Shown: positions 18,182 through 38,469 of the stretch, in pieces
How positions within the stretch are numbered: the stretch's first letter is position 1
Layout of the letters: every line of letters begins with the position of its first letter
NCBI GenBank assembly: GCA_946411515.1
Contig: CAMKEH010000012.1
Span: 1-38,469, forward strand
Direction of reading: 5' to 3'
DNA from: an uncultured Clostridium sp.
Lineage (GTDB): Bacteria; Bacillota; Clostridia; TANB77; CAG-508
Length of the DNA stretch: 38,469 nucleotides
Program-made: the position numbers and the translations under genes
The notes under the pieces: model-generated
Database searches by the model: none
What the model saw: the letters and a program-made list of their open reading frames with translations, nothing else
Told to the model about the DNA's origin: nothing

Positions 18182-18208
18182 AATTCCTCCGAAATTTACT
18201 TTTTTCTA

Positions 18209-18245: not shown

Positions 18246-18247
18246 AT

Positions 18248-19558
18248 TTATTCGTCTATACTAAATGACATTACAAAATCTGATTCTTCTTTTAACTGCA
18301 TAACAATGTTAAATTTCCTATATGGTGCGTCTTTACCTTGAGGAATTTCTTCTCCTTCTTCATCTTTTTTTATTATTCTTACTTTATATGTATAGATATT
18401 TCCTTCTCTTTCAAATTCATCACATTTAACTTCATTTTTTCTATATATATTCTTTTGTAAGAATTCTTTCAATGCATCTTCATTATTAAAATAATTATTC
18501 TTAAATGAATCTGATAATTTTGAATATACATATTTATAATCTTCATTATTTATTGCGGCTATTACTTTACCTATATTTAATACTACTTTTTCTTGATCAT
18601 TTGCTTTGCTATATTTTCCTTTAAATTCTGGTAAATCAATTGTATATAAATCTAAAACTACTTTATAATCAAGAACTTTGTTTATATAAAATACGTAATA
18701 ATTTCCTCTTTGATCTTCACACATATATTCATTATTTTTAACAGAATATGCTTTAAGTATAATTTTATTAATCATATCTTTATTATTTTCTACAAATGTT
18801 GTAAAATTTTCAAATGAACCAAATCTTTTATTTTTGTATTCTTCATTTAAATTATTATAAGCTTCTTGAGTTTTAGATAGCATCATTCTCTTATACATAT
18901 ACAAATATTCTTGACATATATATTCTTCTGTAATTTCTTTTTCTTTATATTTATTATACCTATTTGGCTCTATTTCTAAATCTTTTGTTGTTAATTCAAT
19001 TTCATCTATAGATTTCACATTAGTTACAGGTTCTATTGAATAGGTATTATTTTTATTATCTACATTTAATATAAAATATACATTTTCTTTATATTCATTT
19101 GATTGAGTTTGAGTAAATCCATATATTGAGTATTTAACAGTATTTTTACATTCAATCATATTTATTTTTATTGGAATAAATGTTAATTTTTCTTCTAATT
19201 TATTAACATATTCATATACATTATCCTTTTTTATTGAATTTTTTTCAATAAAATCTGTACTCAATAAATTATATATCTTTTCTTCTATTATAGACTGGTC
19301 TATTCTTTCTCCACCTGTAAAATAAATCACATTATTTACGTTTATTTGTTCTATAAAATTCTGTATATAGCCTTGAACTGTAAAAAGTTGTGTGTTATTT
19401 TCTATTGGTTTAATTATATTGGTTGAAGATTGATTTTTTGATTCTTCTCCCTCATCTATAATCATATCTTTTTGATTTTTATTTAAAATTATAAATATTC
19501 CCAATATTAATATTACTACTATACTTATACATATTAATATAATTATTCTTTTTTTCAT
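18248..19558 (-). CDS. membrane-anchored protein with NTF2-like repeats, secretion-operon component
   Basis: The start is ATG 19558, preceded by AAAGGA at good distance; the frame is open further upstream but those codons lie in the previous gene. The 436 residues carry one N-terminal hydrophobic span (about 3-25), a Ser/Asn/Glu linker, then an extracellular part of at least two or three similar alpha+beta units, for example EAYNNLNEEYKNKRFGSFEN and DYKYVYSKLSDSFKNNYFNN, each followed by strands. This pattern fits NTF2-like folds, as in VirB8 and TcpC of type IV secretion systems. Its place at the end of the operon supports a structural role at the cell surface. The assignment is by pattern, not by strong motif. 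Confidence 0.75.
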   Translation of the reverse strand: MKKRIIILICISIVVILILGIFIILNKNQKDMIIDEGEESKNQSSTNIIKPIENNTQLFTVQGYIQNFIEQINVNNVIYFTGGERIDQSIIEEKIYNLLSTDFIEKNSIKKDNVYEYVNKLEEKLTFIPIKINMIECKNTVKYSIYGFTQTQSNEYKENVYFILNVDNKNNTYSIEPVTNVKSIDEIELTTKDLEIEPNRYNKYKEKEITEEYICQEYLYMYKRMMLSKTQEAYNNLNEEYKNKRFGSFENFTTFVENNKDMINKIILKAYSVKNNEYMCEDQRGNYYVFYINKVLDYKVVLDLYTIDLPEFKGKYSKANDQEKVVLNIGKVIAAINNEDYKYVYSKLSDSFKNNYFNNEDALKEFLQKNIYRKNEVKCDEFEREGNIYTYKVRIIKKDEEGEEIPQGKDAPYRKFNIVMQLKEESDFVMSFSIDE

Positions 19559-19586
19559 TTTTAACATTCCTTTACAATAAAGTAAT

Positions 19587-22500
19587 TTACTTATGATACT
19601 TATCATAATATTCTCTTGAAGAACCTTGTCTTCTCTCAACACGAGCTATACTTGGTCTTTCATATACTCTACAAAATATTTCAGTTGCTTTGTCTACATC
19701 TGTTAATTGTTTGAACTCATCAAGTGTCATTGCTTCTGGCCACCAGCACCACTCACCAGTGCCATAATAATATGGAGAAAGACCTGTATATGTGTCAAAT
19801 GTTTCAGGCAATTGATTTAATAGATACTCTAATTGGCATTGTAAATCAGTCCAGTCTTTACCTTTTGAGGCAGCATATTCTTGCATAGATGCAAAGTTTC
19901 CTGTTGATTTTTCAAAACAAGCTATACCTCCACTTGCAGGCTCATCACATGTTGGATCTAAATAAGATTCGTTATATAAATTTCCCATAATCCCAGCTGT
20001 TGCTTCGTCTGTAAATCCTTCCTTTACAAAAAAGTTCCATACTTGTTCTTCTATTGAATCACCTGACAATATTGTACCTGAGCTTGATGCTTGCTTCATA
20101 CTTTTTTCTGGATCAAATAAGTCTAATAATGCTTTTTCATCTTCTTCTGAAATTCCATAATCTGATCCTTCATATACATATTGGAATAACATTTTTATTA
20201 CATCTACTAAATCCGCTATTGAAGCTGTCTTTTCCATTGATTCAAAAAGCCATCCACTTACTCCATGCAAATTTGTTTTTGCTTCTGCATTATATGATAG
20301 TATCTTTACAAAACTATTTTCTTTTGCTGTTTTATCTGTTTTCCATCTTGTATTTCCTGGTGTCTCTTCAAGTGTTGATGTTGTTGTCTCTTCAGTTATT
20401 GTTTCTTCTTGTTCTGTTTTTTTGGTTTCTGTTCTTATTGTTATACTTTCTATATCCACTTTATAGGTTTTTGCTAATTTCTTATCATCCCCATTTTTTG
20501 TTATTTTATTGTATAAATCTTCATCTGTTTTTAATTTTTTATCTACTGCATCAACTGCATCTGATAATATCTTTTTATATCCTGTTTTAGATACTTCTTT
20601 TGCATATTTTACCATCAAATAATTCTCTTCATTAAATACTGCTTCTATATTTTTTCTTGAATACTCATCCTTTCTTGTTATCATATTTATTACATTACTT
20701 TGTACGTCTTTCTTTGATAAGAATTCTCCTAAATCTGTATTATCATAATATTCTGTCACTTTTTCTTGTAATGCTTGATATTTATATTCTATCTTTGCAT
20801 TTTCTGACTCTACTTCTTCTCTTGATTCTTCTATTTGACGATCTATAATCTCATCCATGTCTTCATCTATTGTTTTTTCTATTAATTCCGATTCATCTTT
20901 ACTTACTGGCTCGTGATCTCCTACATATCTATCTCCTCTTTTTAAATAACTATCTTCTCCTATTTTTTCATCCTCTAATTCAACTGTTTCTTCTTCTGTT
21001 TTAGTGTCTTTTTTTATTTTATAATTGTTATTATAAACAGCTGCCCATGAATCTGCATATATTACTTTTAATGAAGGTGTATCTGTTTTTAATGTATCTA
21101 CTTCTGTTACTTCAAATTTATAAATTAGTGTTACTATTTTTTCTCCATTACCAGCACTAGATTCACTACCAGTTCCCTGATTTGTTGTTATACTAATTGT
21201 GTCTTCAATATTATATGTTTGTTCATATGTTGATACTTTAGTATTTGTTGCATCAAAACATCCTATTACTATATCTGTATCTATTACTAGTTTTGCTAAA
21301 TCATTTGCAAATTCATCATTATGTCCATATACAAGCATTGACCACATTAAATTAAATGGCATCAAATAATTTGATACTTGGTTTAAATAATCTATCTTTT
21401 TTGTTGTTAATTTTGAGTATGGTGTTTGTTTAGGTGTATATTGAGGTCCTTCTATTTCTCCTACTGTAACTCCTTCTTGCACTTCTCCTACATTTGTTTG
21501 ATTTGGTCCATCTACTGATACTTCCATAGTTTCCCATCCAGCTACTACTATATTGTTTGAAGAATCCATTGTGAAATAATTTAGTGCATCTTTATCTGAA
21601 TTACTTATCATATCTGTAAATTCATCATATGGCATATATGCTAAATACATTCCTTCATCTTCATCATTTTTATCTTTCGGATTTGTTAAATATCCTGATG
21701 CAAATGCTTCTGTTTCTTCATCTGAGTATCTCTTTATCTTTATACAGCCTTGTACTTCATTGTCATCTAAGAAAAAGTCATCTGCTATATCTTCTGCTGC
21801 CCTTAAATCTGGATATTGTGTTACTATTACTGCTTTTATCATATTTTTTAAGTACTCATGTTGATGTTTTGAGCTTAAATAATTTTCTAAATGATATCCC
21901 CTTTCTTGCAATTGATATAATAAATTTTCAACTTCCGCATCTAAATCTATATTAATCTTATATCCAAATCCATCTTCTCTTTCAATAATGTTTTTACTCA
22001 TATCTATTTTACTTGCACCAGTTCCAAATGTTATATGTTCTTGTATACATTTTATTATATCTTCATACCATACTTCTAATCCATCACTATTTAAATGTAT
22101 TTTTCCTCCTCCTTGTGAAGTGTCATTAGGATTTGCTGCATATTCATTTTTTAAATATCCTCTTCCTACCTCTGATACTATATTTGTTGTTGGATTTATA
22201 AATGTTGCTCCTTCTTTTCCTTCACAATACTCTCTCATATGATTATTATAATCATCTACTTTTGAATTAAAATTTGGATCTACTGTATATCCATCACATA
22301 TATGTGGTGTTTGCAATACAAATATTTCTTTTCCTGAATAATCTTCTACTAGTTTATCTACCAATTCTTGAGTATCTTCCCAACTTGATCTATTTAATCC
22401 ATTTAAACCAAATTCTACTACTATACAACTTGCATCATTTGGTATTCTCATATCTGTATATGTGCTTAATACCCAATTTGCATTTTTTCCTCCTTGTGCA

Positions 22501-24068
22501 TAGAAATATGAACTTGGGCTTTTTGCTTTTCCTGATCCATTTAGTCCTACCATCCATGAATCTCCGATATAGAAGATTTTATCTTCTGTTAATGTCTTTG
22601 TTCCTGTGCTTCCATCTCCTGTATAATCTACAGCACTTCCATCATCTGTTGCAAAATATATTTCACCTTTATCTAAAGCTCCATATACAAAATCTGTAGA
22701 AAGCCATCCTGTTGACATTCCGTCCCATCCATTAGCATATGTATCAGGATTTGATACATATACTTGTGATTTATCTTTACTTATATCTAATATTGCTAAA
22801 TAATGTCCTCTTGCACTATATCCCCAATCATGGAAAACTGCTACACTTCCATTTGATAAAGCATTTTTAAAGTCATCTATTGATGATACTGAACTTGCTT
22901 GTATGCTTTGTCCTGTAAAATCACTTATAAATGCATCTATATATGTTACACCACCATTTTCATTTAATTTATCTGCCATATCTTGCATTGTTAAATTTTT
23001 ATATCCACTTCCTACAATTCCTGTTGCTACAGTTGAACACTCTTGATTCCAATAAGTTCCATATACTTCAGGATAGTTATAATTTGTATTTTGTTTGAAT
23101 TCTCTAAATTGTCTTCCTGTTGTTCCACTTGTAAATATTGATTCATATCCCCCATTAGATGGATCACAAACTTGTACACTTGCTTCTCCACTACCACTTG
23201 AAGATGTTGATTTACTATCCGATTTTTTATCACTAGATTTTTTGCTTCCTGAACCACTTGCTAATGCATTACCATCAGATTTAACTAATAAAACATAATA
23301 TCCACTATGACTATTTACATATCCACTTATAGTATTTTCATTTCTTCCATCTGTATATCCTGGATCAGATAATATCATATTTCCTTGAGAATCTTCTCCT
23401 AAATAAGCTACAAAGTGATTATCTACCCCTGCTATTATTGGTCTTCCAGCATCAAAATTATCTTTTATATGTTGAGTTGTACTACTAGAAACAGCTTCTA
23501 CTTCTGACTCTATTCCATATTTTTCTTCTAATACTGTCGCAATTATTTGCATACTAGTATAATCATAATTCATATCGTGAAATGAGTTTACAACATCTCC
23601 TGGATCTGCATCAATTCCATATCCACTTAATATTATTGCACCACATGAAGGTCCACATCCAGCACTTGCTATGGTTTGACCCCAATAAGGATTACCAGCA
23701 TAAGACCCTTGCCATTGCCTATAATTTCTAAATTTTCTTGTTGTTCCATTAGGATAATTTACTGTTGTTGTACTCTCCCATCCATCTCCTGTTTCACTAT
23801 CATCTGTTATTGGATCTATTCCATTACCAGTACTAGTTCCACCTTCGGTACTTCCACCAAAACTATTTACTACATATTTTGAAATTATTGCATCTGCAAA
23901 TGCCGGAACTATTGCTGGATATAATTGTTCTTCTTCTTCCATATCATCTTCTGCAAAACTTATTATTGGGATATAAGAAATCATAATAACAATAATTATA
24001 GAAATTATTAACAATTTTTTTAAAATTTGATTTACATTTTCTTGTTTCATTTTTTGTTTTATCAACAT
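19587..24068 (-). CDS. secreted multidomain cell-wall hydrolase: two C39-like peptidase domains, SGNH hydrolase, tail-lysozyme-like domain
   Basis: The 1493 residues begin with a signal peptide or anchor (about 16-40, ending near SFAED). Domain 1 (about 115-265) is C39-like: C138 in GCGPSC, H218 in DNHFVAYLG, D235 in LSDPGY. After a Ser/Lys linker, domain 2 (about 315-475) is a second such fold: C344 in QECSTVATG, H422 in GHYLAIL, N440 in SNPDTY. Domain 3 (about 495-685) is an SGNH hydrolase: S504 in IGDSW, N556 in GLNG, H658 in IHLNSDG, but with Gly655 where the usual Asp of DxxH stands. The middle (about 690-1320) is unassigned, with acidic coiled-coil-like parts. The C-terminus (about 1328-1490) resembles phage tail lysozyme, with E1357 in GNLYNES as likely acid. 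Within this operon it plausibly opens peptidoglycan, as CwlT does in ICEBs1. Confidence 0.85.
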   Translation of the reverse strand: MLIKQKMKQENVNQILKKLLIISIIIVIMISYIPIISFAEDDMEEEEQLYPAIVPAFADAIISKYVVNSFGGSTEGGTSTGNGIDPITDDSETGDGWESTTTVNYPNGTTRKFRNYRQWQGSYAGNPYWGQTIASAGCGPSCGAIILSGYGIDADPGDVVNSFHDMNYDYTSMQIIATVLEEKYGIESEVEAVSSSTTQHIKDNFDAGRPIIAGVDNHFVAYLGEDSQGNMILSDPGYTDGRNENTISGYVNSHSGYYVLLVKSDGNALASGSGSKKSSDKKSDSKSTSSSGSGEASVQVCDPSNGGYESIFTSGTTGRQFREFKQNTNYNYPEVYGTYWNQECSTVATGIVGSGYKNLTMQDMADKLNENGGVTYIDAFISDFTGQSIQASSVSSIDDFKNALSNGSVAVFHDWGYSARGHYLAILDISKDKSQVYVSNPDTYANGWDGMSTGWLSTDFVYGALDKGEIYFATDDGSAVDYTGDGSTGTKTLTEDKIFYIGDSWMVGLNGSGKAKSPSSYFYAQGGKNANWVLSTYTDMRIPNDASCIVVEFGLNGLNRSSWEDTQELVDKLVEDYSGKEIFVLQTPHICDGYTVDPNFNSKVDDYNNHMREYCEGKEGATFINPTTNIVSEVGRGYLKNEYAANPNDTSQGGGKIHLNSDGLEVWYEDIIKCIQEHITFGTGASKIDMSKNIIEREDGFGYKINIDLDAEVENLLYQLQERGYHLENYLSSKHQHEYLKNMIKAVIVTQYPDLRAAEDIADDFFLDDNEVQGCIKIKRYSDEETEAFASGYLTNPKDKNDEDEGMYLAYMPYDEFTDMISNSDKDALNYFTMDSSNNIVVAGWETMEVSVDGPNQTNVGEVQEGVTVGEIEGPQYTPKQTPYSKLTTKKIDYLNQVSNYLMPFNLMWSMLVYGHNDEFANDLAKLVIDTDIVIGCFDATNTKVSTYEQTYNIEDTISITTNQGTGSESSAGNGEKIVTLIYKFEVTEVDTLKTDTPSLKVIYADSWAAVYNNNYKIKKDTKTEEETVELEDEKIGEDSYLKRGDRYVGDHEPVSKDESELIEKTIDEDMDEIIDRQIEESREEVESENAKIEYKYQALQEKVTEYYDNTDLGEFLSKKDVQSNVINMITRKDEYSRKNIEAVFNEENYLMVKYAKEVSKTGYKKILSDAVDAVDKKLKTDEDLYNKITKNGDDKKLAKTYKVDIESITIRTETKKTEQEETITEETTTSTLEETPGNTRWKTDKTAKENSFVKILSYNAEAKTNLHGVSGWLFESMEKTASIADLVDVIKMLFQYVYEGSDYGISEEDEKALLDLFDPEKSMKQASSSGTILSGDSIEEQVWNFFVKEGFTDEATAGIMGNLYNESYLDPTCDEPASGGIACFEKSTGNFASMQEYAASKGKDWTDLQCQLEYLLNQLPETFDTYTGLSPYYYGTGEWCWWPEAMTLDEFKQLTDVDKATEIFCRVYERPSIARVERRQGSSREYYDKYHK

Positions 24069-24104
24069 TATATTATTCTCCCTTTTTTATTAAATACTAA
24101 AATT

Positions 24105-24311
24105 TTAATTAGTTGTATTGCCACCTAAAGCCTTATACTCTTTTTTATGATCTTTAAAAGATGAATCTGATGAATTAGCTAAATAAACTTCTCTAAGAGA
24201 AAATGTTAAAAATATAGATGATATAGAAATAGCTAGAGCTATTACTATAAAGGCTATAGCAACTGGCCTAATTATAGATTTACTAATACTTTTCTTGTTT
24301 GTTTCTTCCAT
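24105..24311 (-). CDS. small single-span membrane protein of the secretion operon
   Basis: The 68 residues comprise a basic N-terminus (about 1-16), one long hydrophobic span (about 17-39) and a polar C-terminus with YLANSSDSSFKDHKKEY that probably lies outside. The AAAGGAG ribosome site lies about 7 bases before the ATG. It sits between the NTF2-like protein (14-base gap) and the wall hydrolase (36-base gap), all on one strand. The family is not recognised; small membrane subunits are usual in type IV secretion loci. Confidence 0.7.
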   Translation of the reverse strand: MEETNKKSISKSIIRPVAIAFIVIALAISISSIFLTFSLREVYLANSSDSSFKDHKKEYKALGGNTTN

Positions 24312-24325
24312 ATTGGTTCTCCTTT

Positions 24326-25258
24326 TTATATATTTATAGACATATTTTTCATCGTTATATTACCATAATTTTGAGGATCATAATTTAATACGACTTCTGA
24401 AAAAGTTAATCTTTTTATTGTTCTATCCTTTATATAAGGATTATCAAATTTTATCTGTATGTTTTTTGAATGTTTTTGATATATTATTAAATCATTTTTT
24501 ATTATTTCATTACTATATGCATAGTGCTTAATATTATTAGTATCTTTTAAATATATTTTTTTAGTATCTAATAATTGATCTAATAAAATATCACCACCTG
24601 TATTATTTGTAACTTTTATATTGTATTTTTCATAATCCATATATTTAACTCTAGATATAACTTCAGTTTTAATATTATCTTCTTCTATACTTTTATTTAA
24701 AGCCTGTGTTCCTATAAATTTATTAATATTTAATTTTTTTTCACCATTTTCTTCTACTATTGTAATATAATCTAATTTACTAGAATTACTTACTGGTTTT
24801 CCAGTTGCTAATAAATCTTCTGTAAATCTAACCATATATGTATTATCTAACCAATTTTCTATTGTGTATTTCTTTTCTTCTCCACCAAATATTTGTGTAA
24901 AATAGTAATCTCTAAAATCATCTATTGTAGAATATAATTCATTTTTACAATCTTCTGAAAGTAGTTTGTATGCTTCTTCTATATTTTTACTATTTCCGAA
25001 TTTTACAAATTCTTCTATTTTATTATTAACTTTTTTTATTTCACTTTTAGACACGCTTCCACCTGTTACAGCAGATGATTCAGATTTTATTGTTCCATTT
25101 GATTCATTATATATATTACTTTTTACATGATTAGATTTATATCCAATTCCTCCTATATAATTTAACATATTAACAGCTATAATTACAGCAATTAATATTA
25201 ATACTCCTAATATGATTTTTTTCCTTTGTTTTCTAATAAATCTCATTATATTATGCAT
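24326..25258 (-). CDS. membrane-anchored NTF2-like protein, possible VirB8/TcpC-like component
   Basis: The 310 residues have a basic N-terminus (MRFIRKQRKK), one hydrophobic span (about 15-35), a Ser/Asn linker to about 65, then an extracellular domain (about 70-185) of NTF2-like type: KKVNNKIEEFVKFGNSKNIEEAY, LLSEDCKNELYSTIDDFRDYYF, then strands. A second, beta-rich domain (about 195-310) contains YNIKVTNNTGGDILLD and resembles a surface beta-sandwich. One span plus an NTF2-like fold is the layout of VirB8 and TcpC, the bitopic scaffold of type IV systems. GGAGG lies 6 bases before the ATG; it follows the third VirB6 gene by 18 bases. Confidence 0.72.
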   Translation of the reverse strand: MHNIMRFIRKQRKKIILGVLILIAVIIAVNMLNYIGGIGYKSNHVKSNIYNESNGTIKSESSAVTGGSVSKSEIKKVNNKIEEFVKFGNSKNIEEAYKLLSEDCKNELYSTIDDFRDYYFTQIFGGEEKKYTIENWLDNTYMVRFTEDLLATGKPVSNSSKLDYITIVEENGEKKLNINKFIGTQALNKSIEEDNIKTEVISRVKYMDYEKYNIKVTNNTGGDILLDQLLDTKKIYLKDTNNIKHYAYSNEIIKNDLIIYQKHSKNIQIKFDNPYIKDRTIKRLTFSEVVLNYDPQNYGNITMKNMSINI

Positions 25259-25276
25259 ACTGATCCTCCAAAAAAT

Positions 25277-28200: not shown

Positions 28201-28321
28201 TTAATACTCCATCATCTGCTGCATATACTTTTGCTGTATTTACAAAAAAATTAAACAATAGTATGACTAATAATATTACTACAATTTTTTGCAATACATT
28301 TTTATTCTGAAATATTTTCAT
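25277..28321 (-). CDS. VirB6/TrbL-like channel protein, third copy
   Basis: The 1014 residues begin with a signal-like hydrophobic segment (10-30), then hydrophobic spans at about 82-102 and 105-132, and a conserved block GFYLPEYELTLESI with FDVNFFNP. A predicted external loop (about 168-300) follows, then two spans (about 310-333, 350-375), a second variable loop (about 385-500), four spans (about 510-612) and a long charged, Gly-rich C-terminal tail (615-1014). VirB6/TrbL proteins form the inner-membrane channel of type IV secretion systems, and TcpH is the long-tailed Gram-positive version. AAGGAGG precedes the ATG. Its 3' half is nearly identical to that of the neighbouring copy. Confidence 0.85.
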   Translation of the reverse strand: MKIFQNKNVLQKIVVILLVILLFNFFVNTAKVYAADDGVLIEPITNLFAKLGDGIMEIAQKTFLDVDSSGAWIEGSTAWGKILTIAFAILIATAAVVATIVSGGSALVVVASALAAVVKIGVTASIVYFAVSKVHFGESGFYLPEYELTLESILKNEVLAFDVNFFNPEPPKEKEIRTYASLNIGTDYKDSKGNTAQKMNESQFNEFKSKYNVTGNPYTNYDSAGSYADGDYSIYVKSNTPLSGGSADETAVRMSKYEWKNGDEEYSAYFGYTTYPKKTYYVSNLRTPNESYKDYTYSPAYILRPTVSSWYLALRNIALVSLLSILVYIGIRITLTSVAGDKAKYKQMLIDWVVALALVFLMHYIMSFSVSINELIIEGISSITLKGYGSESDALGDGELNHITTQASSFDRTGGQEAPGAVEEFNAAGVQFFILEDSEKVSKAYKVLVDDGKGTSENKGKNSPFYNRFDNGENSTTMVWPANDFIVQARILGQDIGQNETQSKVARAGYNIIYVVLVLYTIMFCFTYLKRVIYMAFLTLIAPMVAITYPIDKISDGKAQAFDMWIKEYIFNLLMQPMHLILYTILVGMAMKFAANNIFYAVVAIGFLVPAEKILRRFFRFDRAQTPGMFEGAAGAALLMQGLNKIMHRPQHRSKLGTGGAGQGEEDKGKITTYKGEDPYKGLNAENEEEGSNVKTVNEGKEEGGKEKESDYTVQTAGDMGADFTGGTTSSTNIDATKESKDKKEINDKAKDNKNRNDIKFPRARRAIRRGLITHGEGIRRRYTANKKLKGGLARRAIRTAGGIATAGTMAAAGGIIGITTGDMKKAAQYMGAGAIGGYSLGKAGVDKTADKLKEQYGEPLKQAKIGYYGEEEYAKREHEKWKKQEFEQNSRNIQKVQDKYNLSWKDAKEKSNDIKEYADVRGIDSFDKAMAAYMTSVEGGGSYSKAEAKVLGNLVNGGKLNGKGADSLDRDERKQFTKDLVDRLEKNGYNKKDARKQAARLIEGTNDYAKNLK
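25325..26339. repeat. about 1-kb direct repeat, copy in third virB6 gene
   Basis: Read by eye, this stretch matches 28432-29446 with no difference and no gap (constant offset 3107). Outside it, similarity continues to about 26819 with roughly ten substitutions, and leftward to 25277 with a few. It encodes the C-terminal tail of the VirB6-like proteins. Confidence 0.85.
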
Positions 28322-28383
28322 ATTATTAATCCTCCTTACTATTGTCTAATTCTAAAATTTAATTAAAATATTGTTATAAATTT

Positions 28384-31300: not shown

Positions 31301-31467
31301 ATTATTCCATCACCTAAATTTGCAAATAAGCTTGTAATAGGCTCTAATAAAACATCATCATTATCAGCATGTACAATAGGAGTGTTTATAACAAATTTAA
31401 ACAATAGTATAATTAATAATATAATTACAATTTTTTGCCATATGTTTTTATTCTGAAATATTTTCAC
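28384..31467 (-). CDS. VirB6/TrbL-like channel protein, second copy
   Basis: I choose the GTG at 31467: it follows AAGGAGGATTAAT and gives a protein beginning like the third copy (xKIFQNKN). An upstream in-frame ATG would lie inside the previous gene. The 1027 residues share the layout of the third copy: signal-like segment, two spans, GFYLPEYELT block, first variable loop, two spans, second variable loop, four spans, long C-terminal tail. The tail and last span cluster are almost identical to the third copy. The loops are clearly different (for example it contains KKIDISSLGKEYKDNT), and the N-terminal part is moderately diverged. Its start is immediately after the stop of the first copy (31469), implying coupled translation. 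Confidence 0.85.
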   Translation of the reverse strand: MKIFQNKNIWQKIVIILLIILLFKFVINTPIVHADNDDVLLEPITSLFANLGDGIMDIAQRTFLGMESSGAWVEDSSNTWLKVLTIAAGLLIATLAVAATIVSGGSALVVVASIVGAVVKIGAATAIAYFTVSTMHFGSHGFYLPEYELTLESIFKNEVLAFDVNFFNPKEPEEKDRTTGKKIDISSLGKEYKDNTLKVVARELNQSQYNDFKEKYNVGGTFANYSNEHKGSKMHEGDKFIISGNVASGASDSVIMHKYTWSSNNKTYTAYYGYKSSLGDYYYISDLRETTAGDDVEYSYSPADILQPTVSSWYLTLRNIALVALLSILVYIGIRITLTSVAGDKAKYKQMLADWVIAIVLVFLMHYIMSFAVSINELIIQGISSITLKGYGSESDVVGNADKKVGSVDFSEPLTTQEADYVKDEYKGVQSTEAAKEFQAAGVQFFILDDKDKVTKAYKALVDDGDSSNSSDNKGSNSSFYNRFNEDKTVMVWPANDFMVQARILGQDIGEDETQSKVARAGYNIIYIVLVLYTIMFCFTYLKRVIYMAFLTLIAPMVAITYPIDKISDGKAQAFDMWIKEYIFNLLMQPMHLILYTILVGMAMKFAANNIFYAVVAIGFLVPAEKILRRFFRFDRAQTPGIFEGAAGAALLMQGLNKIMHRPQHRSKLGSGGEGQGEEDKGKITTYKGEDPYKGLNAENEEEGSNVKTVNEGKEEGGKEKESDYTVQTAGDMGADFTGGTTSSTNIDATKESKDKKEINDKAKDNKNRNDIKFPRARRAIRRGLITHGEGIRRRYTANKKLKGGLARRAIRTAGGIATAGTMAAAGGIIGITTGDMKKAAQYMGAGAIGGYSLGKAGVDKTADKLKEQYGEPLKQAKIGYYGEEEYAKREHEKWKKQEFEQNSRNIQKVQDKYNLSWKDAKEKSNDIKEYADVRGIDSFDKAMAAYMTSVEGGGSYSKAEAKVLGNLVNGGKLNGKGADSLDRDERKQFTKDLVDRLEKNGYNKKDARKQASRLIEGTNEYAKNLK
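28432..29446. repeat. about 1-kb direct repeat, copy in second virB6 gene
   Basis: This is the partner of 25325-26339, apparently identical over its whole length while flanking parts of the two genes differ. It points to recent duplication or gene conversion, and it is a likely site for homologous recombination that would fuse the two genes. Confidence 0.85.
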
Positions 31468-31468
31468 A

Positions 31469-34400
31469 TTAATCCTCCTTACTATTGTTTGTACTTTCAT
31501 TTTCATTACCTAAATCATTCTTTATTTGACTGAATTTAACTGTTCCGTTCATTAATTTTTCTGCTTTCATATTAGCTGTTGTAGAACTTATTCCTGGCTG
31601 ATTGCTTATCAATTTATCTTTTAAATCTTGATGTCTTCCTTCCCTTTCTTTACGAGATAATTGCTCTGAATTTTTTCCTCCAAACGTTACATTATGTAAA
31701 TATCCTGCTAAGATTGCTTCTTCTTCTGAAAATCCTTCATCATCTTTTAGTTTTTTCACTGCCATTGCATCTTGCAGAGATTTTATTCCTTTTTTATCTG
31801 TATATTTTGCTATTTCTTTTGCTATTCTCTTAGCATCTTCCTTACTTACTGAAAAATAATTTTGAATTTTTATGATGTTTGCATTATTTTTTTCAAAAGT
31901 TTGCTCTTTCCATTTTTCATGATTTCTTTTTGCATACTCTTTTTCTCCATGATATCCAATTTTTGCCTCCTTGATGGCATCTTTATATTGTTCTTCTAGT
32001 TTTGCTGTGGCTTTAGTTACTCCTGCTTTTCCTAATGAATATCCTCCTATTGCTCCTGTTCCCATATATTTTGCGACTTTGGAAGGATCTCCTGATGATA
32101 ATCCAGCTATTCCTCCTGCTGCTGCCAATGTTCCTGCTGCTGCTATTCCTCCTGCCATTCTTATTCCTCTTTTTAAGGCTCCGCCATTTAGTTGTTTGTT
32201 CATTGTATATCTTCTTTTTATTCCATCTCCATAAGCACTCATTCCTCTTGCTAAAGCTCTTCTAAATTTCATGCTTCTCGTAATTTTTCTTAAATTCTTT
32301 TCTTGTTCTTTTCGAGTTTTTGCTAAACGTTTTTGATTTTCAGCATCATCTATACTTAATTTTAATCCGTTTTCTGATCCACTAACTCTTCCTTCAAAAT
32401 TAACTGCTGAAGTATTTACACCACTGATTTGATTGTCAATAGTATATCCTTCAGGCTCTCTTGCATGATCTATATTATCTTGAGTATTGGTATTACCATT
32501 AGTTGCATTAATATTTATATTTGGCTCTCCGCCTGCTATTAATAGAGCATTAAAAGGATCTTCTCCACTATAAGAAGCTTCTCTTATTTTTCCTTCGTCT
32601 TCTTCTGCATTTCTATTTTGTCCATCATCTAACCTATTTGAAGATGGTTTTAGATTCATTATTTTATTTAATCCTGTCATTAATAGTGCTGCTCCTGCTG
32701 CTCCTTCGAACACTCCTGGTGTTTGTGCTTTTTGATCAAATCCAAAGAATCTTCTTAGTATCTTTTCTGCTGGCACTAAAAATCCTATTGCTACTACTGC
32801 ATAAAATATATTGTTAGCTGCGAATTTTATAGCTGATGTTACTAAAATTGTATATAAAATTAAGTGTACTGGCTGTATTAATAAATTAAATATATATTCT
32901 CTTAACCACATATTAAATGCTTGTGCTTTTCCGTCTCCTATCTTATCTATAGGATATGTTATAGCAACTAATGGTGCAATAACAGTTAAAAATGCCATAT
33001 AAACGATTCTTTTTAAATATATAAAGCAGAATATTACTGTATAAATTACTAATACAACATATATAATTTTATATCCTGATTTAACAACTGCTTCTTGATT
33101 TTTATTTTTTGATAAATCTTTTTCTTCTGTTGATGTTATATCTTCATCTTTAAATATTGTTCCTTGTCCTAACATTCTTGCTTGTGTCATATAATCATAT
33201 GCTGGCCAATATAATGCTACTACATTTCCATCGTCGTCTAATTCAAATCTGTTTGTATATCTACTATATTCACCGGATTTTTTATCTTTATCATTCTCAT
33301 CTGATCCTACCAAAACTTGGTATGCCTTTTTTGCACCATCAGTAATTCTAAATAAATGTACAGCTTGCCTATCTATGTTATTTGGATTTCCATCATCTTT
33401 TCCTGCATCGTAATCAGTAGCTGATTTTGTTTCAACATCTTTTACCTTATTGCTTGTAAATTCATCAATTGTTCCTGCAGAAGCTGGACCTATAGATGAA
33501 ATTGCTTCTATTATTTTTTCATTTATTGCAACAGAAAAAGACATTATATAATGCATTAAAAATACTAATGCAAGCGCAACTGTCCAATCCACTAGCATTT
33601 GTTTATATTTTGCTTTATCACTTGCAACACTAGCTAAAGTTATTCTTATTCCTACATATACCAGTATTGAAAGAAGTGCTACCAAAGCTATATTTCTTAA
33701 TGTCAAATACCAACTTGAGATTGTTGGTCTTAATATAAACGCTGGAGAATCTTTTTTATTAACTGTAGTTGTTTCAGTAGCATCATCACCTAATCTTGTT
33801 GTAGGACTTGTCCAACCATTAATATATGTACGACTAATATCCATTTCTAATTTATGCTCGCCATATCTATATCTCCAAGTTTCAATTGTTTTATATGTAC
33901 CTACATAAACTCCTGTTCTTTCATCTTTTGAATAATCATCTGAAGGGTTTTCATTATCAATATGCCATTCTGTTTTATCCGGATTAGATGTGTCGTATAC
34001 TACAGGGTATTCACTATCGGGTTCTTTTCCTGCATATTTATCATAATCATCATCAAGATATTGTTCGACAAATTCTCTCCTTTTTTCCTGATTTAATTCG
34101 CTATTTTTACCGCCACCAAAAGAATTTCTTTCATTGTATTTTCCTTCTTCTTCGCTATATTCCTTTATTGTAATTGTCACAGTGACATCATTATCTGTAA
34201 AATTTGATATTGTTGTTGAAGTGATTTCTGGATCTTTTGGATTAAAGAAGTTTACATCAAATGCTATTATTTCATTTCTAAAAATAGCATCTGGCGTTAA
34301 TTGATATTCTGGTAAATAGAAACCACTTGATCCTAAGTGCAAATTATTTACAGCATAAAATGCAACTGCTGCTCCTGCAGCTATCTTTATTACCGCGCTT

Positions 34401-34591
34401 GCTGCTGCAAGAATTATTGTTAATGCCGCTCCTCCTGAAGCCACTGTAGCTGCAACAGCTACTACAGCAGCAGCTATTGCAACAACCGCTATTAAAATAT
34501 TGTACCATATCTTAGTATTATCTTCCACCCACGCTCCTGAAGTATCCATCTTTAAGAATGTTTTTTGTAGGATTTCCATTACACCGGTCAC
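31469..34591 (-). CDS. VirB6/TrbL-like channel protein, first copy, main frame after a 5' frameshift
   Basis: This frame holds 1040 residues from a GTG at 34591, but that GTG is not a natural start: it has no ribosome site, and the missing N-terminus is encoded just upstream in another frame. The layout matches the other two copies (two spans, GFYLPEYQLTPDAI block, variable loop of about 150 residues, PTISSWYLTLRNIALV span, second loop, four spans, long tail). It is clearly more diverged from them than they are from each other, including in the tail, which ends NENESTNNSKED. It is first of the three genes, 15 bases after the VirB4 ATPase gene. Functional only if the frameshift is an assembly error or is bypassed. 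Confidence 0.8.
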   Translation of the reverse strand: MTGVMEILQKTFLKMDTSGAWVEDNTKIWYNILIAVVAIAAAVVAVAATVASGGAALTIILAAASAVIKIAAGAAVAFYAVNNLHLGSSGFYLPEYQLTPDAIFRNEIIAFDVNFFNPKDPEITSTTISNFTDNDVTVTITIKEYSEEEGKYNERNSFGGGKNSELNQEKRREFVEQYLDDDYDKYAGKEPDSEYPVVYDTSNPDKTEWHIDNENPSDDYSKDERTGVYVGTYKTIETWRYRYGEHKLEMDISRTYINGWTSPTTRLGDDATETTTVNKKDSPAFILRPTISSWYLTLRNIALVALLSILVYVGIRITLASVASDKAKYKQMLVDWTVALALVFLMHYIMSFSVAINEKIIEAISSIGPASAGTIDEFTSNKVKDVETKSATDYDAGKDDGNPNNIDRQAVHLFRITDGAKKAYQVLVGSDENDKDKKSGEYSRYTNRFELDDDGNVVALYWPAYDYMTQARMLGQGTIFKDEDITSTEEKDLSKNKNQEAVVKSGYKIIYVVLVIYTVIFCFIYLKRIVYMAFLTVIAPLVAITYPIDKIGDGKAQAFNMWLREYIFNLLIQPVHLILYTILVTSAIKFAANNIFYAVVAIGFLVPAEKILRRFFGFDQKAQTPGVFEGAAGAALLMTGLNKIMNLKPSSNRLDDGQNRNAEEDEGKIREASYSGEDPFNALLIAGGEPNININATNGNTNTQDNIDHAREPEGYTIDNQISGVNTSAVNFEGRVSGSENGLKLSIDDAENQKRLAKTRKEQEKNLRKITRSMKFRRALARGMSAYGDGIKRRYTMNKQLNGGALKRGIRMAGGIAAAGTLAAAGGIAGLSSGDPSKVAKYMGTGAIGGYSLGKAGVTKATAKLEEQYKDAIKEAKIGYHGEKEYAKRNHEKWKEQTFEKNNANIIKIQNYFSVSKEDAKRIAKEIAKYTDKKGIKSLQDAMAVKKLKDDEGFSEEEAILAGYLHNVTFGGKNSEQLSRKEREGRHQDLKDKLISNQPGISSTTANMKAEKLMNGTVKFSQIKNDLGNENESTNNSKED

Positions 34592-34742
34592 CTATTCTTG
34601 CAAATAATCCTGTAATTGGATCTAATGCTACGGATAATACACTTGCTTGTACAGGCTTTACAAAAACAAATTGAAATAACATTATTATCAAAAATATAAT
34701 TATTAAGTTACGCTTTATTTTCTTATTCTGAAAAAATCTCAT
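34518..34742 (-). pseudogene. N-terminal fragment of the first virB6-like gene, upstream of a frameshift
   Basis: The ATG at 34742 has AAGGAG 5 bases upstream and encodes MRFFQNKKIKRN, a hydrophobic signal-like segment and DPITGLFARIGD, all matching the starts of the other two copies. After GD the frame departs into an unrelated sequence and stops at 34518. Removing one G from the CCGG at 34584-34587 restores a frame reading GDGVMEILQKTF, as in the paralogues (GDGIMEIAQKTF). The natural gene therefore spans 31469-34742, about 1090 residues. Confidence 0.85.
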
Positions 34743-34757
34743 TGTTTCTCCTTAATT

Positions 34758-36716
34758 TTATTTCTGTTTTTTTGCTAATTGATTTAAATTTGTTTCAACA
34801 AATTCAAATTCTTTTCTAGTTGGCATTATTTTTAAAATTGCCGTATCTGCTCCAACTTTTAATAACCCCTCTCCTTTTTGGCATGTAATTAAAAAGTTTG
34901 CTTCACCTTCAGAAAGTTTAAATACTTCTTTTAAGTATTGGATTTCTGATTTATCTTGTGCTAAAAATAGTTTTGTATCTGATGATGTAAGAACAGCTTG
35001 TGCTTCTGGTTTTTCATAAAAATCTTGGAATCTTTGTGAAATTATTGCAAGAGAAACATTTCTTTTTCTTGCACGTCTTGCCATTTTATTTAAGAAATCT
35101 ACGGCTTCCTGGTATGGAAGTAACATCCAAGCTTCATCTACTAAAACTCTTTTTTGCCTAGCTTTTGATTTATCTTCACTATTCTTTTTTACAAATTTTT
35201 CCCAAATCCAAGAAAGTAATATTTGTTGAGCAAGTGGCCTTGCAAATCTTTCTTCTAGTTGAGATATATCTATATTTATAAAAGGTGCTCCTTCTAACAA
35301 TTCAAAGGTTGATTGTCCATCAAAATAAGCCATTTGTCCATCATATTCTCTTATGTATTGTTTCATAACTTTTAACAAATAACTATAATGATATTGATAA
35401 TCTGAGTTCTTATTGTCTTGTGCTTTTTTTAGAATTCTTCTAAACCAACTTCCTATTGTTGGCATTTTTTTCTTATTTCTTGCAAAGACATTTCCATTGT
35501 TTATTCCTGATGCTGATGATTCATATAAACTTTCCGGATTACTATTTATTCCTCTTGCTGCATACTCCTCAGCAACAGATTCTGCTATAATTTGTTTAGT
35601 AAGCTCGTTTACTTCATCACTTTTTGTACTTCCTCTTGCCATTGTAAGTAAAGCCTGCGTAACGTCTTCTACCTTATTTTCAACATTTAAAACTGTTCTT
35701 TCTTTTCCTGTAATTTCATCTTTTATGTTTTCTGCTTCTATATCAAAAACATTAATTATTGTTTTAGACGTAGGACTTATTACAACATTTATTCCCCCTA
35801 AACTTTCAGCAACTATTCTATATTCACCTTCAGCATCTAATGCTAAACTTTCAATTCCCATAAGAACAGAAGACCTTGACACTAAAGTCTTCATTGTAAC
35901 AGATTTACCTGCACCGGATTTAGCAAATATAACCATATTATAATTAGTAAGTGAGTGATGAAAATTGTCAAACAATATTGGCGTTCCTGTTTGTTTATTA
36001 AATCCTAGTGGTACACCTGTGGGATGTCCTATTTCTGAAGTTGTAAATGGAAATACTGTTCCCATTGAATTTCTATCAAATGTATGTAATTTTTTTACTT
36101 TATCATTCATTAATGGTAAATTTGATTGAAAAGCTTCTTCTTGCATTCCCCATGCTGTTTTTATTCCTACTAATGTTTTTGACATTTCTCCTGCTAATAA
36201 TTTTGTATATCTATCCAATTCTTCTAAATTATATGAAAACAATGTAGCTACTATAGAAGCCTCATATAATTTATTGAATCCTGCTGCTATTTCATCTCTC
36301 AATTCTTCAGCTTCTAATCTTTTCTGAGCTATAACACTCTCTCTGTTTATATTTCCCTTGTCAGATGCTACTATTCTTTCTGTTTCCAATTCATTAATTA
36401 CTCTATTTAATTCATTTTGAGATCTTTCTTCTTTTATTGGATTTATAAAAACAGATGTATTTATATCTCCGAAAAGATACATGTCTCTAAATAATTCTGG
36501 AAATGTACACATTCTTGGTAATGATGATACAAAGAAACTTCTAGCATATCTTTTAGTATTTGATATAATTTCTAAATGATCAATATTAGAAGTATCTATT
36601 CCTGATGGAGCAATTAATTCTTTTATACTTTTTTTCTTTAATAGCTGATATTCTTCTTCTCTTGATTGATTATATTGTTTTTCTAGTTCTTCTTGTTTTG
36701 CTTTCTTTTTCGCCAT
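34758..36716 (-). CDS. virB4: VirB4/TraE-type ATPase of a type IV secretion system
   Basis: VirB4 ATPases energise assembly and transport in type IV secretion. The start is ATG 36716 (MAKKKAKQEE), 8 bases after GGAGG; ATGs further up overlap or precede that site. The 652 residues contain a helical N-terminal domain, Walker A in FAKSGAGKSVT (Lys271 by this numbering), the segment LALDAEGEYR after it, Walker B in RVLVDEAWMLLP (Asp527-Glu528), the ARRARKRNVSLAIISQRFQD block and a C-terminal KGEGLLKVG segment, all typical of VirB4. It lacks the usual N-terminal region, which is supplied by the separate gene upstream. The symbol is by family. Confidence 0.92.
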   Translation of the reverse strand: MAKKKAKQEELEKQYNQSREEEYQLLKKKSIKELIAPSGIDTSNIDHLEIISNTKRYARSFFVSSLPRMCTFPELFRDMYLFGDINTSVFINPIKEERSQNELNRVINELETERIVASDKGNINRESVIAQKRLEAEELRDEIAAGFNKLYEASIVATLFSYNLEELDRYTKLLAGEMSKTLVGIKTAWGMQEEAFQSNLPLMNDKVKKLHTFDRNSMGTVFPFTTSEIGHPTGVPLGFNKQTGTPILFDNFHHSLTNYNMVIFAKSGAGKSVTMKTLVSRSSVLMGIESLALDAEGEYRIVAESLGGINVVISPTSKTIINVFDIEAENIKDEITGKERTVLNVENKVEDVTQALLTMARGSTKSDEVNELTKQIIAESVAEEYAARGINSNPESLYESSASGINNGNVFARNKKKMPTIGSWFRRILKKAQDNKNSDYQYHYSYLLKVMKQYIREYDGQMAYFDGQSTFELLEGAPFINIDISQLEERFARPLAQQILLSWIWEKFVKKNSEDKSKARQKRVLVDEAWMLLPYQEAVDFLNKMARRARKRNVSLAIISQRFQDFYEKPEAQAVLTSSDTKLFLAQDKSEIQYLKEVFKLSEGEANFLITCQKGEGLLKVGADTAILKIMPTRKEFEFVETNLNQLAKKQK

Positions 36717-36769
36717 CTCCATTACCTCCTTTTTGTTTTTCTTTTGTGCCTTCATTATCAATTATTTGT

Positions 36770-37900
36770 TTAGCTTTTCCGTGTTACTTCATCTCCAAAA
36801 TAATCTTCATTTTCATCTATTATGATTTTAGCCATGTCACTAATTAATTTATCCAAATCTCTTTCCTTTTCTTTAGCTTCTTTTGCTTTTTCATTTTCTT
36901 CAGCAGCCATAAATATTGCACTATTCGCTTTCCTTAGTGCTTCTTCTTCGATTTTTTTATCTAGTGCTTTTATCTTTTTATCAAAAACATCTGGGGCCGT
37001 AGAATAAAGATCTTCATATCCTGCATTTAACATTTTATTTAAATCATATATATCAGTTTCATCTCTATTATAAGCATTATATAAAAGTTCTGTTAATTCT
37101 GTTGAATTTAATATTTTGCCATTTACTCCACAAACATATAATGCACTTATAATAGATTGAGATTTTGTATACAATTCAGAAAAAGCTATACTTTTAATTT
37201 CTTCTTTATCAAAATCTTTACTGTCAAGGTCTTCTGGATAATAAGATATTATTATATAATATTGTTTAGTTAATATATTTCTATTAAAACTCATTTGTTC
37301 AGTGTTTTTAATGATATCTAGACCATATTCATATAAATTTCTTTGTTTTACTACTTCTAGATAATATTTCTTTAATTCTTCCTCAGAATATTTTTTTGAG
37401 TTTTCTTTTTGCCTATATTCCATTTCTGTTTTTGATAATCTGCTTTGAATCTCTTTTATTTTGTTTTTATATGAAACTATACTGCTTCCAAGATTAACAG
37501 TTCTTGTTTGTATATAAATTTGAATCGGATGTCTTAACGTATTTAAAAATTGTAAAAAGCCTTGTTCAACACTAGTTTTTTCTATTCCTGACATCAAATC
37601 ATAGTTTATTCCTTGGCATTCTATTACCATTAAATAATTTTTCTTTTCTTTTTTTATAATCATATTATCTTCAATTCTATCAAATTCAAGAAAAGAAAAT
37701 ACAGATTCTTTAGTATACTCTTTAGTTTTTTCATTACTATTTTTTCTTTTTTTATTGTCAGAAATTTTATTAATTTCTTTTGTTGTTACTTTTTTATTTT
37801 TTTTCTCTTTGAATTTTAACATTACAAAAATTGTTAATAAAACTATTAATACAATAATCATAAAAGCTAAAATAGCAGATAACATACCTACATTATTCAT
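36770..37900 (-). CDS. membrane-anchored VirB4 N-terminal-like protein
   Basis: The 376 residues have one hydrophobic span (about 6-28), a Lys-rich linker to about 62, then a domain (about 63-290) resembling the N-terminal TraC/VirB4 region: ESVFSFLEFDRIEDNMIIKKEKKNYLMVIECQGINYDL, then LQFLNTLRHPIQIYIQTRTV and FNRNILTKQYYIIISYY. There is no Walker A. The C-terminus is a charged coiled-coil-like helix (AEENEKAKEAKEKERDLDK). It lies between the PrgI-like gene (8-base overlap) and the VirB4 ATPase gene (53-base gap). The split suggests that VirB4 works here as a membrane-tethered N-subunit plus a soluble motor. Confidence 0.82.
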   Translation of the reverse strand: MNNVGMLSAILAFMIIVLIVLLTIFVMLKFKEKKNKKVTTKEINKISDNKKRKNSNEKTKEYTKESVFSFLEFDRIEDNMIIKKEKKNYLMVIECQGINYDLMSGIEKTSVEQGFLQFLNTLRHPIQIYIQTRTVNLGSSIVSYKNKIKEIQSRLSKTEMEYRQKENSKKYSEEELKKYYLEVVKQRNLYEYGLDIIKNTEQMSFNRNILTKQYYIIISYYPEDLDSKDFDKEEIKSIAFSELYTKSQSIISALYVCGVNGKILNSTELTELLYNAYNRDETDIYDLNKMLNAGYEDLYSTAPDVFDKKIKALDKKIEEEALRKANSAIFMAAEENEKAKEAKEKERDLDKLISDMAKIIIDENEDYFGDEVTRKS

Positions 37901-38261
37901 CTTTTGTTTCCTCCTTATTATCCTTTATAGTTATAGATTTATAAATATATATTCTATTCTTCTTTCTCTTAAACATTACCCATCTTTTAATTATATCGTC
38001 TATATTTTCTCCTCCTGTTTTTTTGGTTATTTCGAAACTTTTAAGATCTGGGACTTTAAATGTAGCTATTGAAAACCCTACTATTCCAAATATTATAGCT
38101 ATTATTATTCCTACCATAGTCCATCCAATTAAATTCATTATAAAATAAAATATTAACCCTACACCCACGCCAACTGCTGTATATATAATAGCTTTTGTGG
38201 AAAATATATATAATATTCTTCCCTCTCCTTTATAGTTTCTTGGTATATAATATGATTGCAT
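37893..38261 (-). CDS. PrgI-family conjugation/type IV secretion protein
   Basis: The start is ATG 38261, 7 bases after AAAGGAG; an earlier in-frame ATG at 38294 lacks a ribosome site. The 122 residues begin MQSYYIPRNYKGEGRILYIFS, a typical PrgI opening. Two hydrophobic spans (about 24-45 and 48-68), FKVPDLKSFEITKKTGGENIDDIIKRW, and a Lys-rich tail follow. PrgI-family proteins are small two-span (VirB3-like) inner-membrane parts of Gram-positive conjugation systems, usually encoded just before VirB4, as here. Confidence 0.85.
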   Translation of the reverse strand: MQSYYIPRNYKGEGRILYIFSTKAIIYTAVGVGVGLIFYFIMNLIGWTMVGIIIAIIFGIVGFSIATFKVPDLKSFEITKKTGGENIDDIIKRWVMFKRKKNRIYIYKSITIKDNKEETKDE

Positions 38262-38308
38262 TGTTTTTCTCCTTTCATTCATATTTGAACCCATTTCGAC
38301 TTAATATT

Positions 38309-38337
38309 ATTATAGCAGATTTTGTGCATAATTGTAA
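38309..38337 (-). promoter_or_regulatory. promoter of the secretion operon
   Basis: On the minus strand TTACAA (38337-38332), exactly 17 bases ending in TGC (extended -10), TATAAT (38314-38309). A second TGCTATAAT further upstream (about 38340-38348) has no good -35. All genes down to 18248 follow on the same strand with short gaps and no obvious internal terminator. Confidence 0.7.
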
Positions 38338-38420
38338 CATTATAGCAAAAAAAATATAAATTTAATATAATTGTAATATTTTTGTAATATTTTATTAATA
38401 TTTTATTTTTTACCAATAAT

Positions 38421-38463: not shown

Positions 38464-38469
38464 AAATAA

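Follow-up and report, generated by a model that had tools for sequence, protein, structure and literature searches.

Does a 20-kb operon of type IV secretion system (T4SS) parts on the chromosome of a gut clostridium belong to a mobile element, or has the machine been settled by its host, and what would it then move? The operon in question lies in a 38,469-nt stretch from an uncultured Clostridium sp. (assembly GCA_946411515.1, contig CAMKEH010000012.1; the whole stretch is referred to as the window), which is one entire contig, C12, ending at position 38469, of a metagenome-assembled genome of 1.55 Mb in 65 contigs that is ~90% complete. Ten minus-strand genes occupy 38294 to 18248, separated by gaps of -56 to +166 nt that are small or zero in most cases. 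They encode a PrgI/VirB3 protein, a VirB4 divided over two genes, VirB6-like proteins in three copies, a wall hydrolase resembling VirB1, two domain-sharing membrane proteins and a small membrane ORF. A 20-kb single-strand operon of T4SS-like parts had been read from the sequence in an earlier note (hereafter the original prediction), and the ORFs that it named are indeed found on the minus strand at 18248-38294. We interpret the operon, with moderate confidence in the statement as a whole, as a domesticated, contact-dependent chromosomal T4SS that would export protein in one order of gut Clostridia, and that would have been derived from a Bacillota conjugation module made up of pilin, PrgI, split VirB4, VirB6 and wall hydrolase.

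The distribution of the system carries the first part of this interpretation. Of 36 relatives, 27 have a VirB4 of this type at more than 600 bits and one more (G024) has a short fragment; at E 1e-100, it was detected in 86 of the 115 genomes of the order that are at least 95% complete, covering 26 of 32 genera. A single VirB4 match was found in 84 of these 86 genomes, the other two (G035 and G487) having two partial matches on different contigs, and the frame is open over at least 637 aa in 80 of them. In an evenly drawn sample of 391 genomes of the class, full-strength matches occurred inside the order only, and the matches outside it were distant VirB4 relatives in eight genomes (the best, G166, at 375 bits). 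Gene neighbourhoods were counted in 80 named loci, mostly deposited as uncultured Clostridia, Clostridium or Eubacteriales (UBA3678 stands at NCBI as Clostridia, unclassified Eubacteriales); these are the best 80 of 448 confirmed loci, so that near relatives dominate the counts. Twenty-eight of them are neighbours of parB and another 28 stand behind two M16 peptidase genes (recognised through Pfam in a single locus, through BLAST in the others); two are elsewhere, and 22 have too little flank. That is, 56 of the 58 assignable loci occupy two fixed chromosomal sites. Long contigs of relatives show the operon next to parB-parA-rsmG-mnmG-mnmE-jag-yidC-rnpA and dnaA, pointing away from the origin. 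The origin genes of the source genome are on another contig, C14, starting 133 bases beyond parB, and synteny suggests that C12 and C14 adjoin. The operon is fixed near the replication origin in many members of the order. For the other four families mapped, parAB were seen in none of the seven stretches fetched (loci in G023, G025, G026, G029, G030, G032 and G034), some of which have short flanks.

Distances between VirB4 proteins agree with those between GyrB proteins across 23 genomes (Mantel r 0.91, 0 of 2000 permutations), these being the genomes that had both proteins among 27 VirB4 and 28 GyrB rows, some of them partial; both trees recover the families f3, f4 and f5, as well as the genus, as monophyletic. 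Inheritance is thus vertical between families, with either exchange or a weak signal inside the genus. Fixed sites, order-wide single-copy retention and agreement with GyrB across families therefore argue for a domesticated rather than an integrative system. The proposal of a dedicated secretion apparatus or domesticated conjugation module accordingly stands as far as a dedicated, domesticated T4SS is concerned, but has to be amended in that a coupling protein does exist in these genomes (see below). The parts of the machine have changed at very different rates. Median identity to the window was 82% for the ATPase half of VirB4 (80 loci), 58% for PrgI (76 loci), 54% for the N-terminal half of VirB4 (79 loci), 40-41% over about one-third of the length for VirB6 (76-78 loci), 36% for a 310-aa membrane protein (65 loci), 32% for the last gene (59 loci) and 28% over one-sixth of the length for the hydrolase (61 loci). 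The housekeeping reference, taken from C14 against 18-27 loci of the parB context, gave 85-87% for ParA, ParB and MnmG and 63% for RsmG. The VirB4 ATPase is conserved about like housekeeping genes, while the exposed parts diverge.

The components themselves, all encoded on the minus strand, were called mechanically, and some gene starts may be wrong. The first gene (37893..38294) encodes a PrgI/VirB3-like membrane protein with two hydrophobic segments. Its match to Pfam PrgI is weak (E 8.6e-5, below cut-off), yet an orthologue is kept at the same position in 76 of the 80 loci, and the protein at this position in a plasmid cousin, the pGspE55-1 module, passes the Pfam cut-off. VirB4 is split into two genes. 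The N-terminal half (36770..37900) is a separate TrsD-like protein of 376 aa with one N-terminal membrane helix, which matches NCBIfam VirB4_plasma at E 9e-7 (model positions 49-404 of 894, below cut-off); its structure model is of low confidence (pLDDT 69, pTM 0.37) and a PDB profile search with it gave no useful match. The ATPase half (34758..36761) matches the TraG P-loop family over its cut-off (E 4e-15) and NCBIfam VirB4-type models at E 7e-59 (conju_CD1110) to 2e-25, all below their own cut-offs, and its sole PDB relative at E 0.001 is the VirB4-like 4ag5 (E 1.4e-29). Both the PrgI-like gene and the split VirB4 had been predicted, and both are borne out. An artefactual split was rejected: all 80 loci have the ATPase half and 79 also have the N-terminal half on an ORF of its own. 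The two ORFs usually overlap or nearly touch, and no fusion was seen. The split is ancestral in this system. It is not new in itself, since a comparable TrsD and VirB4 pair is described for the pGO1 subclass and Patescibacteria (PMC12102498).

Three VirB6-like polytopic membrane proteins follow, a prediction upheld by weak profile matches below cut-off, by 7-8 hydrophobic segments each (on a crude scale) and by position. The first copy (31469..34591; TrbL_4 E 1e-3 and pLS20_p028 E 1.8e-7, both below cut-off) has its start in another frame. A short ORF (34518..34742) carries its signal-peptide-like beginning and has tblastn matches in 16 of the 80 loci, right after the VirB4 ATPase half among the matches listed. 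The gene seems to have a frameshift close to its beginning (ORFs 34518-34742 and 31469-34591), which could be real or an assembly error. The second copy (28384..31506) has a weak match to pLS20_p028 (E 3.3e-4), and the third (25277..28321), a repeat of the second, belongs to no Pfam family. Copies 2 and 3 (window 25277-31506) are 97-100% identical over alignment columns 601-1100, i.e. in their C-terminal halves, which could reflect a recent tandem duplication, gene conversion or an assembly effect. VirB6 copy number also differs among relatives. The predicted giant wall hydrolase (19587..24068) is a putative secreted, VirB1-like protein combining a C39-like peptidase (Peptidase_C39_2, E 6e-10), a GDSL-like domain (Lipase_GDSL_2, E 6e-7, below cut-off) and a C-terminal lysozyme domain (Phage_lysozyme2, E 7e-25), the first and last of which confirm its assignment; a large hydrolase is present in 59 of the 80 loci. 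Four of the components of a monoderm MPF_FATA-like T4SS, namely a VirB4 ATPase, a VirB3/PrgI protein, a polytopic VirB6 protein and a VirB1 wall hydrolase, are thus found together.

Two further membrane proteins had been labelled NTF2-like, and this label is only partly supported. The last operon gene (18248..19642; homologue in 60 of the 80 loci) has a weak match to DUF4864 (E 3e-4, below cut-off), which was recovered in four of 24 aligned members at E 0.01. The 310-aa single-pass protein (24326..25258; homologue in 66 loci) has no convincing Pfam family, and shares the DUF4864-matching stretch of the last gene in an hhalign profile comparison (probability 91%). Searches of PDB profiles with the two proteins gave no useful match; both are perhaps VirB8-like. 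The small membrane protein of the original prediction corresponds to an ORF call of 68 aa (24105..24311) that is present in the window but was found in none of the 80 related loci by tblastn at E 1e-3. Several of these family assignments are weak or fall under curated cut-offs, and gene position supports them. The earlier note had proposed to look for the same gene order in related genomes; PrgI (76/80), both VirB4 halves (79/80 and 80/80), the hydrolase (59/80) and the last gene (60/80) recur in the related loci.

What lies upstream of PrgI could be established mainly from relatives. Genes for VirB2-type pilins are located directly upstream of PrgI in 71 of the 80 loci. Wherever the upstream flank allowed a count (60 loci), they form tandem arrays of 2-4 genes, and their median identity in 159 pairwise comparisons is 41%. 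Of four pilins of relatives that were tested, three score above the cut-off of PF18895 and two above that of PF04956 as well (best E 1.6e-11). In the window, a terminator-like hairpin (38421..38443, minus strand; 38415-38450 folds at -17.8 kcal/mol, z -4.2) occupies the position at which, in relatives, a terminator follows the last pilin gene. A hairpin followed by a T tract (-8 kcal/mol or better) was found between the last pilin gene and PrgI in 30 of 59 relatives, compared with 0 of 59 shuffled sequences. Contig C12 ends 26 bases past the hairpin, and for this reason the pilins of the source genome are expected in the assembly gap. Between hairpin and PrgI is an extended -10 promoter (38309..38338, minus strand; GTTACA-18-TG-TATAAT). 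A good promoter had been predicted at 38309-38337; the sequence is seen at 38338-38309, and a TGnTATAAT-like box precedes PrgI in 59 of 59 distinct relatives (59 of 70 pilin-PrgI gaps were used, 11 being dropped by length) against two of 59 sequences shuffled once each. Promoter-like matches are common in the region (144 in 18000-37999, with 123.5 expected), so the promoter claim rests on this comparison across relatives. The succession of hairpin and promoter between pilins and PrgI predicts two units, the pilins and a separately started machine operon. At the other end, the predicted intrinsic terminator (18218..18245, minus strand) is supported by the fold of 18212-18250 (-16.3 kcal/mol, z -5.4), even though it was absent from the list of a consensus scan.

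Whether the machine handles DNA depends first on relaxases. PF03432 relaxases occur in 14 of the 36 relatives (11 of the 27 with this VirB4 and three of the nine without it), the own genome carrying them on C10 and C28, and PF18555 (MobL) in four. A weak match to PF13814 (Replic_Relax) was found in 27 relatives, one per genome, with 23 over cut-off and frames mostly of ~311-351 aa. This protein was considered as a hidden relaxase and rejected, because its presence in 21 of the 27 genomes with VirB4 and six of the nine without is not tied to VirB4. None of the three relaxase-type families searched follows the distribution of the operon, and no relaxase was found among the operon proteins by profile scan. 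None of the three families had a match over cut-off less than 50 kb from VirB4 on its contig, many contigs being short; the nearest such match is 59 kb away, in G025, a below-cut-off PF13814 match lies 15 kb from VirB4 in G030, and in G017 PF03432 genes are at least 21 kb away from the coupling protein on its contig. No integrase was detected among the nine left-hand genes of the window and the C14 genes that were profile-scanned, att sites not having been systematically searched. The statement that no relaxase or integrase accompanies the operon has held in these searches. Since no dedicated DNA-nicking enzyme was found beside the operon, contact or injection is probable rather than spread of its own DNA. 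As a separate observation, the PF13814-matching gene (near 32980 on C11 in the own genome; loci L216-L219) was found in 0 of 14 control genomes, and in the four loci read it adjoins pseudouridine-synthase-like and S1-domain-like genes, recognised by eye without a profile.

The claim that no coupling protein is present was not upheld. That none had been seen was a limit of the window, whose contig ends at 38469: a TrwB-type coupling protein is encoded on the own contig C14 (28234-29799, E 9e-11), beyond gyrA and across the origin. The suggested search within 50 kb, which turned up no over-cut-off relaxase match, did locate a coupling protein in G012 (29 kb from the operon) and G014 (34 kb). Of the items that the note had named as refuting its reading, a coupling protein at this range is therefore present, and relaxase, integrase and att sites did not turn up in the searches described. 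The gene is outside the operon, across the origin or, in other families, elsewhere (~289 kb away in G025). Its stretch contains stops in six of the 31 relatives in which it was matched (G001, G005, G008, G010, G012 and G014), and no match was found in G011, G013, G023, G027 and G031. VirB4 and coupling protein occur together in 25 of the 36 relatives, VirB4 alone in two, the coupling protein alone in six and neither in three, so there is no strict partnership between them. The cluster by the coupling protein on C14 includes a pilin-like protein (PF18895 E 1.5e-7), as well as a small gene and a membrane protein that were labelled PrgI-like and VirB6-like by position and size only, the latter having no Pfam match. 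Also on C14, a second split VirB4 is located between gyrB and gyrA (L055: 15947-16510 and 17391-19019). In G025, from another family, genes for a ParA/CpaE-like protein, a CpaF/TadA-like ATPase and a weakly matching T2SSF protein come after a second split VirB4 (L175: 5731-11755), an arrangement that looks as if a VirB4 and a Tad pilus had been combined.

The operon also has relatives on plasmids. A total of 1861 plasmid records matched, all below 60% identity to VirB4; the best plasmid VirB4 proteins (~31% identity) are on large plasmids of Paenibacillus, Geobacillus, Thermoanaerobacterium and the like, and phage matches reach at most 27% (20 of 30 matches listed). Six loci on Bacillota plasmids (pSC2, pGspE55-1, pMU3262, pBH-BAT-167 and two others, pLS20 not being counted) all have the order PrgI-position gene, gene of VirB4-N size, VirB4-C and gene of VirB6 size. 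The PrgI-position gene is named PrgI in three of the six, a hydrolase is annotated next in five, the sixth locus being incomplete, and a pilin before the module was confirmed by Pfam on pGspE55-1, the only plasmid tested. These modules differ from the clostridial operon in being on plasmids, and on pGspE55-1 there are, in addition, genes for a Tad pilus, a coupling protein and a Replic_Relax protein. The six plasmids read (including NZ_AP022558.1, NC_014628.2 and NC_017998.1) are all typed as non-mobilizable; this typing may miss a conjugation type, because they carry a T4SS module and pGspE55-1 the coupling and Replic_Relax proteins in addition. In a 36-row VirB4 tree, which has several long branches, the clostridial system forms a 100/100 clade on a long stem, nested in a 98/97 clade that also contains the six plasmids and scattered elements with a split VirB4 from the same genus and class, whereas the gyrB-side VirB4 forms a separate clade. 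In two scattered elements of this kind from the same genus, those of G017 and G003 (L240 and L242), a PF02534 coupling protein is encoded at a distance of ~9 and ~11 kb from VirB4, with surface proteins that bear SpaA or thioester domains nearby; no relaxase was found among the ten proteins scanned. They would stand to the operon in the contrast expected of a mobile and a settled version.

The closest known systems are those of Patescibacteria, with which the comparison was made by description. According to two reports (Quinonero-Coronel 2025, PMC12102498; Wang 2023, PMC10633639), these T4SSs are chromosomal, lack a relaxase in most clusters and lie near dnaA/dnaN/rnpA in most classes. They share with the clostridial operon PrgI, a TrsD next to VirB4, tandem divergent VirB2-like pilin arrays and a coupling protein that is mostly away from virB4 (PMC12102498); tandem VirB2-like pilins by virB4 (here in relatives) and a cluster free of relaxase are found in the clostridial system as well. 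The host is different, being clostridial, with sporulation genes in the window, genus assemblies of 1.3-2.2 Mb and no sign of an epibiont, and the clostridial operon includes a large wall hydrolase and two domain-sharing membrane proteins. Each part is therefore known, and the combination of a lineage-wide chromosomal T4SS, pilin arrays, origin proximity and no linked relaxase is already described for Patescibacteria (PMC12102498). A saccharibacterial T4SS that bears pilins and has no recognizable coupling and relaxase proteins is described as essential for epibiotic growth (PMC10633639). pLS20 of Bacillus subtilis provides the best, still weak, match to a VirB6-like family (pLS20_p028, E 1.8e-7), but is typed as conjugative and encodes a relaxase, mobL (annotated MobP2); in the tree, its VirB4-like row lies at a great distance and remained unplaced. 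The T4SS of Streptococcus suis 89K is presented, in a 2025 review (PMC12857230), as a Gram-positive VirB1/3/4/6/8/VirD4 set with reported protein export; unlike the clostridial operon, it is located on a pathogenicity island. The same review states VirB2 and VirB5 to be absent from Gram-positive T4SSs other than those of Patescibacteria. No description of the present system in Clostridia was found in searches of the open-licence PMC literature.

In an order of gut Clostridia of ordinary size, most of the members sampled carry a pilin-bearing T4SS as inherited chromosomal equipment, and a VirB4 match in a gut genome is no proof of a mobile element. The order offers a second lineage, possibly easier to cultivate, for asking about the role of a relaxase-free, pilin-bearing monoderm T4SS, and the comparison separates traits specific to epibionts from traits of the machine. 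A bolder proposition, which we regard as rather improbable, is that the order is the Bacillota counterpart of the contact T4SS of Patescibacteria and possibly near its donor lineage, representing a second independent domestication at the origin that delivers protein or DNA into neighbouring gut bacteria.

In the protein-exporting machine that we favour, the pilins, made as a separate unit, would form a short pilus or channel, PrgI, split VirB4 and VirB6 would constitute the membrane motor and pore, and the hydrolase would open the cell wall. Upon contact with neighbouring cells, the machine would export protein and perhaps adhere, the TrwB-like coupling protein possibly delivering substrates to it. 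The fast divergence of the exposed parts, namely VirB6, the pilins, the hydrolase and both domain-sharing proteins, may be due to their facing other cells. This scheme draws on the lack of a linked relaxase in the searches made, the fast-changing surface parts, the pilins and the saccharibacterial parallel. Several points weigh against it. No substrate, effector or immunity gene was identified. VirB4 is lacking in 29 of the 115 genomes of the order, several of them nearly complete, which makes the system dispensable. Agreement between VirB4 and GyrB is weak within the genus (14 genomes, r 0.26, 126 of 2000 permutations), so that exchange of the locus may occur there. The post-pilin terminator met the strict test in only 30 of 59 relatives; a search for the operon pilin in the own genome found none, the pilins of the source genome being unassembled. 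Finally, the strong coupling-protein matches in 31 of 36 relatives fit DNA transfer as well.

Because the coupling protein is so widespread, exchange of chromosomal DNA is the main rival, although we consider it unlikely. A T4SS with a TrwB-type coupling protein would in this case act without a relaxase, like archaeal Ced or in an Hfr-like transfer, favoured by the position at the origin. The short distance of 29-34 kb across the origin in two genomes would suit such a process, as would ComEC, found in 36 of 36 relatives, and the coupling and Replic_Relax proteins of the plasmid cousin pGspE55-1; the weak within-genus congruence could itself reflect exchange. Conversely, no relaxase of the three families searched is co-inherited with the operon, the seven loci of other families showed no parAB in stretches that are partly short, and the coupling gene is ~289 kb off in G025. 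Two of the 27 genomes with VirB4 have no coupling protein and six of the nine without VirB4 have one. An ordinary uptake route is, moreover, on offer: 34 of 36 relatives have ATPases of the T2SSE family over the cut-off, mostly of PilB-like strength, so that type IV pilus uptake is probably present alongside ComEC. The same two counts led us to reject the idea that the machine replaces competence.

Less probable still is a pilus for adhesion or biofilm only, in which pilins and motor would build a contact organelle with zero export. The tandem pilin arrays, often followed by a terminator, and the fast divergence of exposed parts would agree with it; the VirB3-VirB4-VirB6 set and a large hydrolase retained in 59 of the 80 loci would seem, by analogy, to exceed the needs of a pilus. 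A DNA uptake machine like ComB of Helicobacter appears quite unlikely. It would account for a VirB-type set without relaxase in genomes that all have ComEC, but the T2SSE-family ATPases again make a type IV pilus route probable. An ordinary or decayed integrative conjugative element, for which one can cite the homology of the parts to conjugation proteins, the split-VirB4 modules on plasmids, those located elsewhere in G017 and G003 close to PF02534 coupling proteins, and the PF03432 relaxases of the own genome, is highly improbable and was rejected, since the operon keeps to two sites in 56 of 58 loci and to a single copy in 86 of 115 genomes (80 with the long open frame), is below 60% identity to every plasmid record and at most 27% to the phage matches listed, and departs, in the families and genes searched, from the make-up of such an element (a relaxase with the T4SS, an integrase with att sites at a variable position, and a coupling protein inside). 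Uptake, adhesion alone and an ordinary integrative element are thus ranked as less likely than protein export or DNA exchange.

The left part of the window, in which nine genes were profile-scanned, holds chromosomal genes, among them those for SpoIIR, an EPSP-synthase/MurA-type enzyme, a CoA-activase-like giant protein, a DnaJ-domain protein and an ABC transporter. An ABC operon and chromosomal genes had been named as left neighbours of the operon and both are seen, with the correction that the ABC genes lie beyond the operon terminator. A scan of the window against Rfam at gathering thresholds gave zero matches. The ABC transporter pair is at 15772-18181, and ORFs of similar size, compared by size only, follow the operon in many relatives.

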